The notes under the pieces: model-generated
The model's input: only the letters and a program-made list of their open reading frames with translations
What the model was told of the DNA's origin: nothing
The model's database searches: none
Translations under genes and position numbers: made by a program
Shown here: positions 3,161 through 62,499 of the stretch, in pieces
How the letters are laid out: each line of letters opens with the position of its first letter
Position numbering within the stretch: the stretch's first letter is position 1
Source: Pseudomonadota bacterium
GTDB taxonomy: Bacteria; Desulfobacterota; Desulfobacteria; Desulfobacterales; RPRI01
Length of the DNA: 64,000 nt
Direction: 5' to 3'
Assembly: GCA_018817425.1 (NCBI GenBank)
Contig: JAHITX010000020.1
Span: 1-64,000 of the forward strand

Positions 3161-3323
3161 GAGTCAGTTTCAAAATATCCCATTTTGGCCGATCTTTGCG
3201 TTAGGCTCAAATTTCGCACGAAGTGACACGTAGTGAAGCATAAGCGCTAACCATTAGCGCTATCCTCGAAATACTAAATGTATTCCTGTGGTTGATATTT
3301 TCTCCCGCCTTGAGCTTGACCAA
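3161..3323 (+). repeat. 142-bp element, copy R3 with a 46-bp insert and lost right end
   Basis: Starts GAGTCAGTTTC at 3161 and follows the family to 3215. It is then interrupted by about 46 bases (3216-3261) ending in a perfect inverted repeat AGCGCTAA-CCA-TTAGCGCT (3243-3261). The family sequence resumes at TCCTCGAAATAC and stops at GACCAA (3323); the terminal 25 bases with the right inverted repeat are gone. It lies upstream of the tetR promoter. Confidence 0.8.
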
Positions 3324-31925: not shown

Positions 31926-32068
31926 GAGCCACTTTCAAAACGTTTCAGTTTGGTCAAGCTCAAGGCGGGAGAAAATTTCAACCGCAGGGATACATTGAGT
32001 ATTTCGAGGATTGAAATTTGAGCCCAACGCTTAAGATCGGCCAAAATGGGGCGTTTTGAAACTGGCTC
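31926..32068 (-). repeat. 142-bp element, full copy R4, flanked by ATCT duplication
   Basis: Complete copy between convergent prsR and gspN. Ends are GAGCCACTTTCAAAACG and CGTTTTGAAACTGGCTC, imperfect inverted repeats. The flanks are ATCT on both sides (31922-31925 and 32069-32072), a 4-bp target duplication. The last bases contribute to the gspN stop codon, but removing the element with one ATCT still leaves a TGA there, so insertion did not change the protein. Confidence 0.92.
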
Positions 32069-34545: not shown

Positions 34546-34687
34546 GAGCCACTTTCAAAACGTTTCAGTTTGGTCAAGCTCAAGGCGGGTGAAAATTTCA
34601 ACCACAGGAATACATTGAGTATTTCGAGGATTGAAATTTGAGCCCAACGCAGAGATCGGCCAAAATGGGGCGTTTTGAAACTGGCTC
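34546..34687 (-). repeat. 142-bp element, full copy R5, flanked by ATGA duplication
   Basis: Intact 142-bp copy between gspK and gspL. Left end GAGCCACTTTCAAAACG, right end CGTTTTGAAACTGGCTC. Direct ATGA flanks it on both sides (34542-34545 and 34688-34691), the clearest target duplication in the window. It leaves the gspL ribosome site intact but inserts a large potential hairpin in the operon transcript. Confidence 0.93.
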
Positions 34688-36289: not shown

Positions 36290-36631
36290 CTATCTTTTTC
36301 CGGTTATTATTTCAGATAGTATAAGTTTTTCTTTCCCACTTATTACAGTTACTCCGATTTCCAGCATACCCGGAAATGTTGAATCCGACACCCTGGTTTC
36401 ATATTGAATGTCGGAAAAAGGTTTAGGAAAATTTCCGCGATCTTCGGAAGGATTCTTCTCCATTTCATAGATCTTCTCATGTGCTAACCTATCGATAGTA
36501 GTTAAGACTATCTGCTTCTCAGCTACACCGAGATGGTAATTAAGGGAAGAAATCAGGGTAAAAAGAAGTCCTCCTATAATTGCGAGGCTTATCATGATTT
36601 CAAGGAAAGTGAACCCTTTGTGCATCATCAA
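36290..36631 (-). CDS. gspI: Type II secretion minor pseudopilin GspI
   Basis: 113 residues. MMMHKG precedes the processed helix FTFLEIMISLAIIGGLLFTL with Glu at position 5. The short globular domain (MEKNPSEDRGNFPKPFSDIQ, YETRVSDSTFPGMLEIGVTV) fits GspI in size and pattern. Three consecutive start candidates exist; the first overlaps the gspH stop by four bases, so coupling is likely. Confidence 0.85.
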   Translation of the reverse strand: MMMHKGFTFLEIMISLAIIGGLLFTLISSLNYHLGVAEKQIVLTTIDRLAHEKIYEMEKNPSEDRGNFPKPFSDIQYETRVSDSTFPGMLEIGVTVISGKEKLILSEIITGKR

Positions 36632-37089
36632 ACCCTATGCTGTGTTATTATAGTTATTCTGCCACTTAGAGAATTTGAACTGACAGAAATAGTATAATCA
36701 TCACTTTTTAAATTAATCATAAAACTTTCTGAAGCACCCAATGGAGTATAAAACACAATTACTTCTCCCTCAGATATTATACCTCTGGTTTGCAACAAAA
36801 CACTTGAAAGCTCATTAATTTTCTCTGTTTTTTCACCTTCAGGGCCTTTATATCTGATTGTTTTTTGGCCCAGATCAAATTTAACGGCATATGTCTCTTT
36901 CATAGTCACTGCACTATCATTCAGATAACGCAGAACCGATGCTAAAACCGCTGCTTCGGATTTTAACTTGCCGCTTTCACGGAAGCCAATATATGGGAAA
37001 GATACCATGAGCATTACGGAAATGATAAAAACCACAACCATCAATTCTATAAGAGTAAAACCGCTATAGCCAGTTTCAAAACGCCCCAT
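36628..37089 (-). CDS. gspH: Type II secretion minor pseudopilin GspH, leader supplied by element R6
   Basis: 153 residues from the ATG at 37089, giving MGRFETGYSG then FTLIELMVVVFIISVMLMVS; cleavage after Gly would give the normal mature start with Glu at position 5. The ATG and the codons for MGRFETG lie inside repeat element R6, so the leader peptide is repeat-derived. The globular part (LKSEAAVLASVLRYLNDSAV, ETYAVKFDLGQKTIRYKG) matches GspH. No strong ribosome site precedes the ATG, so expression may depend on coupling or be low. A longer start at a TTG further upstream is possible. Confidence 0.82.
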   Translation of the reverse strand: MGRFETGYSGFTLIELMVVVFIISVMLMVSFPYIGFRESGKLKSEAAVLASVLRYLNDSAVTMKETYAVKFDLGQKTIRYKGPEGEKTEKINELSSVLLQTRGIISEGEVIVFYTPLGASESFMINLKSDDYTISVSSNSLSGRITIITQHRV

Positions 37090-37208
37090 TTTGGCCGATC
37101 TCTGCGTTGGGCTCAAATTTCAATCCTCGAAATACTTAATGTATTCCTGCGGTTGAAATTTTCCCCCGCCTTGAGCTTGACCAAACTGAAACGTTTTGAA
37201 AGTGGCTC
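37067..37208 (+). repeat. 142-bp element, copy R6, overlapping the start of gspH
   Basis: Plus-orientation copy of normal length between gspG and gspH. The left end has one change (TAGCCAGTTTC for GAGCCAGTTTC), the right end is GAAAGTGGCTC at 37198-37208. The flanks (GCTA and CTTA) do not form a clean 4-bp duplication. Its left 23 bases encode the first residues of GspH on the minus strand. Confidence 0.9.
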
Positions 37209-37215
37209 CTTAGGC

Positions 37216-37656
37216 TTACATTTCCCAATTTTTAATATCCGCATCCTTGCCTTCTCCGCCCTCTTTGTCATCAGCTCCGAAACTCATGATATCAAAATCT
37301 CCGTTTATGCCTGGAGATATGTACATGTATGAATTGCTCCACGGATCAAGCGGTATCTTTTTCTGTTCCAGGTACCCACCCGTTCTGTAGTTATTAGGTA
37401 TTCGACCTGTCTCAGGCTTTATTAAAAGAGCATCAAGTCCCTGTTGAGTATCCGGATAAAAGCCATTATCAATTTTAAAAAGTTTTAAGGCAGTCTCAAA
37501 ATTTTTAATTTGTACTTTTGCTTCCGTAATGCGGGCATCATCAGTTCTTCCGATGATCTTTGGAGCTACTATCGCCGCTAAAAGGCTTAGAATAAAAACC
37601 ACAACAACAAGTTCAATTAAAGTAAAACCATTTATCGAAATATATTTTTTTTGCAT
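37216..37656 (-). CDS. gspG: Type II secretion major pseudopilin GspG
   Basis: 146 residues from the ATG at 37656, preceded by GGGGAGAG; a TTG four codons upstream is weaker. MQKKYISING is the leader and FTLIELVVVVFILSLLAAIV the helix, with Glu at position 5. The domain has the major-pseudopilin signature NGFYPDTQQGLDALL near residue 75 and LDPWSNSYMYISPG, followed by the calcium-site loop ending SFGADDKEGGEGKDADIKNW. GspG polymerises into the pseudopilus that pushes substrates through the secretin. The stop lies just before R6. Confidence 0.95.
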   Translation of the reverse strand: MQKKYISINGFTLIELVVVVFILSLLAAIVAPKIIGRTDDARITEAKVQIKNFETALKLFKIDNGFYPDTQQGLDALLIKPETGRIPNNYRTGGYLEQKKIPLDPWSNSYMYISPGINGDFDIMSFGADDKEGGEGKDADIKNWEM

Positions 37657-46307: not shown

Positions 46308-46449
46308 GAGCCACTTTCAAAACGTTTCAGTTTGGTCAAGGTCAAGGCGGGTTAAAATTTTAACCGCAGGAATACATGTAGTATTTCGAGGATTAAAATT
46401 TTATCCCAACGCAGAGATCGGCCAAAATGGGACGTTTTGAAACTGGCTC
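46308..46449 (-). repeat. 142-bp element, full copy R7
   Basis: Complete 142-bp copy, slightly diverged (GGTCAAGGTCAAGG and TTAAAATTTTAACC inside). Ends GAGCCACTTTCAAAACG and CGTTTTGAAACTGGCTC intact. Flanks TGAC and TCAG do not match. It lies 24 bases upstream of the flavoprotein start. Confidence 0.9.
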
Positions 46450-62357: not shown

Positions 62358-62499
62358 GAGCCACTTTCAAAACGTTTCAGTTTGGTCAAGCTCAAGGCGG
62401 GCGAAAATTTTAACCGCAGGAATACATGGCGTATTTCGAGGATTAAAATTTGAGTCCAACGCAGAGATCGGCCAAAATGGGGCGTTTTGAAACTGGCTC
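62358..62499 (-). repeat. 142-bp element, full copy R8
   Basis: Full-length copy. Ends GAGCCACTTTCAAAACG and CGTTTTGAAACTGGCTC intact. Flanks ATTT and GTTT match at three of four positions, a possibly decayed target duplication. It lies between the toxin-antitoxin pair and the radical SAM gene. Confidence 0.91.

Follow-up and report, generated by a model that had tools for sequence, protein, structure and literature searches.

The window, by which we mean the whole 64,000-nucleotide stretch analyzed, carries on its minus strand gspG, the gene for the major pseudopilin, followed by a second pseudopilin gene, gspH. Between the two lies R6, a full copy of a short repeat element. The features of the locus, listed in the direction of gspH, are as follows.

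37216-37656, minus strand: gspG (major pseudopilin), the upstream neighbor of gspH, matching T2SSG PF08334 and carrying the native leader MQKKYISING
37242-37244, minus strand: the native gspH ATG, still present inside the 3' end of gspG and homologous to the gspH starts of the relatives G005 and G008
37113-37244, minus strand: the severed native leader ORF of 43 codons, consisting of MRILKIGKCKPK and then element residues
37209-37212: the target-site copy on the upstream side, reading TAAG along the minus strand, placed by sequence and junction analysis
37067-37208: R6, a full 142-bp MITE-like element copy whose minus strand is the gspH sense (GAGCC...GGCTA)
37067-37083 and 37192-37208: the imperfect 17-bp inverted ends of R6
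37125-37128, minus strand: a Shine-Dalgarno-like GAGG in the element, 8 nt before the TTG at 37116
37114-37116, minus strand: a candidate TTG start in the element, favored, giving the leader MSPTQRSAKMGRFETGYSG
37087-37089, minus strand: an alternative candidate ATG start in the element, giving the leader MGRFETGYSG and having the weaker Shine-Dalgarno sequence
37063-37066: the target-site copy on the downstream side, reading TAGC along the minus strand, forming a degenerate duplication with the upstream one
36628-37116, minus strand: the gspH (pseudopilin) frame including the element-encoded leader, with the mature part running from the F at 37059

The minus-strand frame of gspH runs ...D, a stop codon, NLSPTQRSAKMGRFETGYSG and then, past the cleavage site, FTLIEL. 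The TGA just upstream and the cleavage Gly bound the region in which gspH can start, and this region holds only two standard start codons, TTG at 37116 and ATG at 37089, both of them inside R6. An earlier sequence-only reading had proposed that R6 supplies the gspH start, and this holds up, all available in-frame starts being within R6. Its assignment of the leader residues MGRFETG to the element is likewise borne out, with the addition that the element also contributes two bases of the following Y codon. The same reading regarded the ATG in R6 as the sole good one; it is indeed the only ATG, but the TTG has the stronger Shine-Dalgarno sequence, with a predicted duplex energy of −6.3 kcal/mol versus −3.2 kcal/mol for the ATG. 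Judged by these sequences, TTG 37116 appears at least as likely as ATG 37089 to serve as the gspH start.

The protein itself shows the signal expected of a type II secretion pseudopilin. PF07963 (N_methyl) scores above its cut-off and is the sole Pfam match to GspH in a search in which a GspH-specific C-terminal model was also sought. The residues expected around the cleavage site, Gly at −1 and Glu at +5, are present, and the whole arrangement is that of a class III signal, namely, a hydrophilic leader ending in Gly, the Glu at +5, and a hydrophobic stretch (G, the cleavage site, then FTLIELMVVVFIISVMLMVS). Class III leaders comprise 6 to 26 residues (PMC4471445), and the predicted GspH leader, of 10 or 19 residues depending on the start, lies inside that range.

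R6 belongs to a large family. It is 97 to 99% identical to many other copies and has just 4 differences from the family consensus. In the gspH sense the element runs from GAGCCACTTTCAAAACG to CGTTTTGAAACTGGCT with a final C or A, and the inverted ends GAGCCACTTTCAAAACG and CGTTTTGAAACTGGCTC are related by a single mismatch. Searching the genome to which the window belongs (G000) gave 293 first-look candidates, with at least 43 strong matches among those listed; candidates are about as numerous in the sister genome, G006, and diverged versions of the element are present across the order. We extracted and inspected 106 full copies from these two genomes, of which 69 are flanked by an exact 4-bp target duplication. 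With its short length, terminal inverted repeats, target-site duplication, and high copy number, the element looks like a MITE, and as 142 bp leave no room for a transposase gene, it would be a non-autonomous one. Lone inverted ends, sought as a sign of an autonomous parent, yielded a few candidates in the DNA scanned, and a search of Rfam gave no match for the element.

Further full or partial family copies occur in the window at 1-138, 878-955, 3161-3323, 31926-32068, 34546-34687, 46308-46449, and 62358-62499, the first of these forming the first bases of the contig. Immediately ahead of gspL stands the copy at 34546-34687, and the gspL reading frame extends without a stop into the opposite end of the element, but an ATG belonging to gspL itself (MKKIGF) follows the junction. 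A 164-bp variant of the element contains about 21 extra bases near position 56 (L091:2774-2937, L091:3873-4036, and L063, which is G000:C24:110152), and additional copies have about 46 extra bases near the same position. The diverged relatives L046 to L051, from the genus and the order, have other ends (GAGACCTTTGC...GCAAAGGTCTC) around a conserved core.

Comparing the gspG-gspH junction in related genomes, as the sequence-only reading had suggested, proved informative about what R6 interrupted. The closest relatives with gspH are G006 (79%), G005 (69%), and G008 (55%); in all three the order from gspG to gspH, a prepilin gene, is conserved, and the element is absent from gspH in each of them. 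The gspH genes of G005 and G008 begin with an ATG overlapping the 3' end of gspG, with the leaders MRTSKAGIYSKG and MRMSKTGICNNG, respectively, each followed by FTLLEL. The G006 junction holds different, unrelated sequence, and gspH there is apparently GTG-started. In the window, leader codons still run from the ATG at 37244 to the R6 junction, and deleting the element together with 4 bp (146 nt, 37063-37208) produces a continuous native frame, MRILKIGKCKPKG followed by FTLIELMVV.

Since this removal restores the native frame, a deletion within the old start need not be assumed, and since the homologous ATG survives at 37244-37242, the old start was separated rather than lost; the earlier suggestion of a partial deletion can thus be set aside. 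R6 had also been said to lack a clean target duplication. The two copies are indeed not exact, but a duplication exists in the degenerate form TAAG/TAGC, and because the frame is restored when 4 bp are removed with the element, the insertion fits the 4-bp rule of the family, the duplication having degenerated since. As for the claim that the insertion replaced the 5' end of gspH, what remains of it is that the native 5' end was separated and that the element supplies a start and a plausibly processable leader; the element-free relatives and the reconstructed empty site argue for the separation, while translation and processing of the leader are predicted from the sequence.

We consider it probable that the element severed the native gspH start and that starts within the element now begin a pre-GspH whose leader is cleaved off. 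The insertion would have occurred between the native ATG at 37244 and the cleavage Gly and would have duplicated 4 bp of the target. The severed leader ORF stops at the TGA at 37115-37113, which overlaps the element's TTG at 37116 (TTGA), and such a stop/start overlap has the geometry of translational coupling and is to be read as that geometry, not as proof. The element RNA is predicted to fold into a long hairpin (−64.4 kcal/mol, z = −8.9) in which the ATG would be largely, and the GAGG and TTG partly, masked. When the 5' arm was forced open in the calculation, mimicking a translating ribosome, the GAGG and the ATG became almost fully free and the TTG partly so. We infer that ribosomes initiating at the native ATG would melt this hairpin, terminate at the TGA, and so be delivered to the overlapping TTG, with its GAGG, or to the ATG at 37089, where re-initiation would yield pre-GspH with a leader of 19 or 10 residues, respectively. 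Prepilin peptidase would then remove the element-derived leader and leave mature GspH unchanged. Because the leader is normally cut off, an insertion there would be tolerable, and we propose that a prepilin leader is a permissive landing place, from which the surviving insertions would be solely those in a productive orientation and phase. This amounts to a testable route by which a gene may survive a start-severing insertion, with the element providing the ribosome site, the orphaned leader frame perhaps delivering the ribosomes, and the cleaved leader hiding the change from the mature protein.

A parallel insertion is found in the neighboring pseudopilin gene of the sister genome. In G006 the same element lies in gspG, between MQKKYILTG and GFTLIEL, which is the same position relative to the cleavage site as that of R6 in gspH, and removing the element plus 4 bp again restores the native frame. 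This copy carries one additional T and is the sole one of 32 near-full-length G006 copies to differ in length. The extra base joins the native ATG, the complete element, and mature GspG into a single open frame, whose predicted leader has about 58 residues; another change in it creates AGAGG before an internal ATG. The G006 consensus is without the TTG and TGA of the G000 copies, and because it lacks the TGA, coupling of the gspH kind would fail there, so that a frame-restoring indel is the expected fix.

A third case concerns a 394-codon gene on contig C94 of the window genome that six other genus members share. Here the element has come between the native start region (TTG, MSKSLNP) and PVKFFL, its orientation and phase being those seen at gspH, and the first part of the remaining gene contains no start codon. 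The gene lpxI on contig C127 is also open into an element copy; we rejected it as an element-started gene, its relatives sharing a conserved GTG past the junction.

How the family as a whole is distributed bears on these cases. With the element removed, 8 of the 106 sites fall inside an ORF (at least 110 codons, with at least 40 downstream), versus 78% of random positions, so that insertion into genes is either rare or followed by purging. Among the eight, start-severing of a conserved gene was seen three times (gspH, G006 gspG, and the C94 gene), and the orientation and phase were productive in all three, where chance would give about one in six per case, the numbers being small. Apart from the contig C1 copy described next and a helicase-like gene interrupted in G006, the remaining in-ORF sites apparently represent spurious ORFs or genes with their own start past the element. 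At one copy on contig C1 of the window genome (L091:3873-4036), a TATG target duplication copies the start codon of a gene beginning MDILITGASGFIGS, which keeps its native ATG directly beside the element.

It could be argued that gspH was instead silenced by the insertion, a stable hairpin and a start set apart from the gene leaving little or no translation and the frame being open merely because the event is recent. R6 is close enough to the family consensus that selection may have had too little time to show, and a hairpin as stable as that of the element could itself suppress translation. Damaging insertions exist too, as one copy in G006 interrupts a helicase-like gene in a non-productive phase (L113, G006:C175:31922), with about 320 codons before it and about 330 after. 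What makes us regard silencing as unlikely, however, is the productive orientation and phase in every start-severing case, together with the fact that gspG of G006, encoding the major pseudopilin, has the same insertion and a frame-restoring indel. The mature gspH frame is also intact, and its dN to the outgroup G005 is no faster in the window genome (0.188) than in G006 (0.199). The corresponding values for gspG are 0.119 and 0.122, and by this comparison neither interrupted gene shows signs of relaxed selection, although the youth of R6 makes the test a weak one for gspH.

An assembly artefact, or a consensus copy misplaced at the gspG-gspH junction, is a far less plausible explanation. The genome is a draft in 147 contigs, many of which end in element copies, as repeats break contigs, but R6 has unique junctions on either side within one contig, the gene order around it is that of G006, G005, and G008, and its element end (GGCTA) is unusual and its 4-bp duplication degenerate. 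Least credible of all is that the element end is a portable translation-start module selected for giving genes their starts: the G000 copies do conserve the GAGG, TTG, and ATG with a frame open to the element end, and the same geometry recurs at gspH and at the C94 gene, but the majority of copies lie between genes and close to native starts, the G006 consensus has neither the TTG nor the TGA, and the element's ATG frame shows no enrichment of the productive phase across all neighboring ORFs, so that the element is not generally a start supplier.

That a MITE can supply an N-terminus is already known, since element-encoded N-termini have been described for RU-2 and for the Rickettsia palindromic elements (RPEs). 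In the accessible part of the RU-2 account, a short non-autonomous repeat encodes residues 1 to 30 of a protein as well as some of the cleavable signal for its export, the example being pestis YPO1552, whose repeat-free homologues have an unrelated signal sequence. RU-2 is a different element, and the signal there is a Sec-type signal peptide, whereas here it is a type IV prepilin leader; a severed native start, a coupling geometry, and a parallel insertion are not described in that part of the account. RPEs are about 150 bp long and form in-frame fusions with genes (PMC10969869), which resembles the G006 gspG case, where one frame is read through the element. RPEs differ in encoding a conserved peptide and lying inside many genes, whereas the copies studied here avoid coding DNA and are not commonly in frame within genes, and in G000 the frame is interrupted by the element, which provides a new start.

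Bacterial MITEs in general (PMC10969869) resemble the element in size, inverted ends, target duplications, copy number, and mostly intergenic location; the difference is that a parental insertion sequence is not among the findings for this element. The term "start codon" is absent from that review. Translational coupling, in which translating one ORF promotes translation of the next, is well established for neighboring genes and is treated in the accessible part of PMC12548453, and the likeness to it lies in the upstream stop overlapping the next start, known here from sequence geometry; the difference from the systems in that part is that the geometry was made by an insertion and that the separated leader of the gene itself forms the upstream ORF. 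We found no description in the open-access literature of a prepilin leader as the target, of a parallel insertion in a neighboring pseudopilin gene, or of the coupling geometry.

A broader proposal, which we hold tentatively and think rather less probable than its opposite, is that prepilin leaders, being cut off, are recurrent neutral landing places for mobile repeats. On this proposal the gspH and gspG leaders would have been replaced or extended by the element independently in sister species, the one gene being supplied with a start by re-initiation and the other put back in frame by an indel that leaves a leader of some 58 residues, and gspJ of G006 would apparently have been entered by a second repeat family. 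Two parallel insertions at the same position of neighboring pseudopilin genes suggest that cleaved N-termini tolerate the entry of repeats into coding sequence, and gene finders may need to allow for pilin starts that sit within repeats. Both gsp cases come from the locus under study and so carry an ascertainment bias, and among the 19 prepilin genes of the window genome only 1 has an element-bearing leader, so that no enrichment in leaders is claimed here other than these two cases.

A collection-wide scan for the element end joined to a prepilin motif returned five records, one of them from G006; the other four (two from Omnitrophota and one each from Methylococcaceae and Caulobacterales) have no element sequence upstream and were taken as chance matches. 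In L186 (G006:C140), a truncated element lies just upstream of a prepilin-like gene, and the frame is open from an ATG through the remnant to GFTLLEL; we did not retain this gene as an element fusion, the case being ambiguous because translation could also begin at a GTG past the remnant. At the gspI-gspJ junction of G006 (L032, G006:C175), the gspJ leader region reads ...RYSLFGIRYSSLNG before FTLLEI; its apparent source is another short repeat (TTCGCTATTCGGCATTCGATATTCG), and repeats similar to that one are present at the gspG-gspH junction of the same genome.
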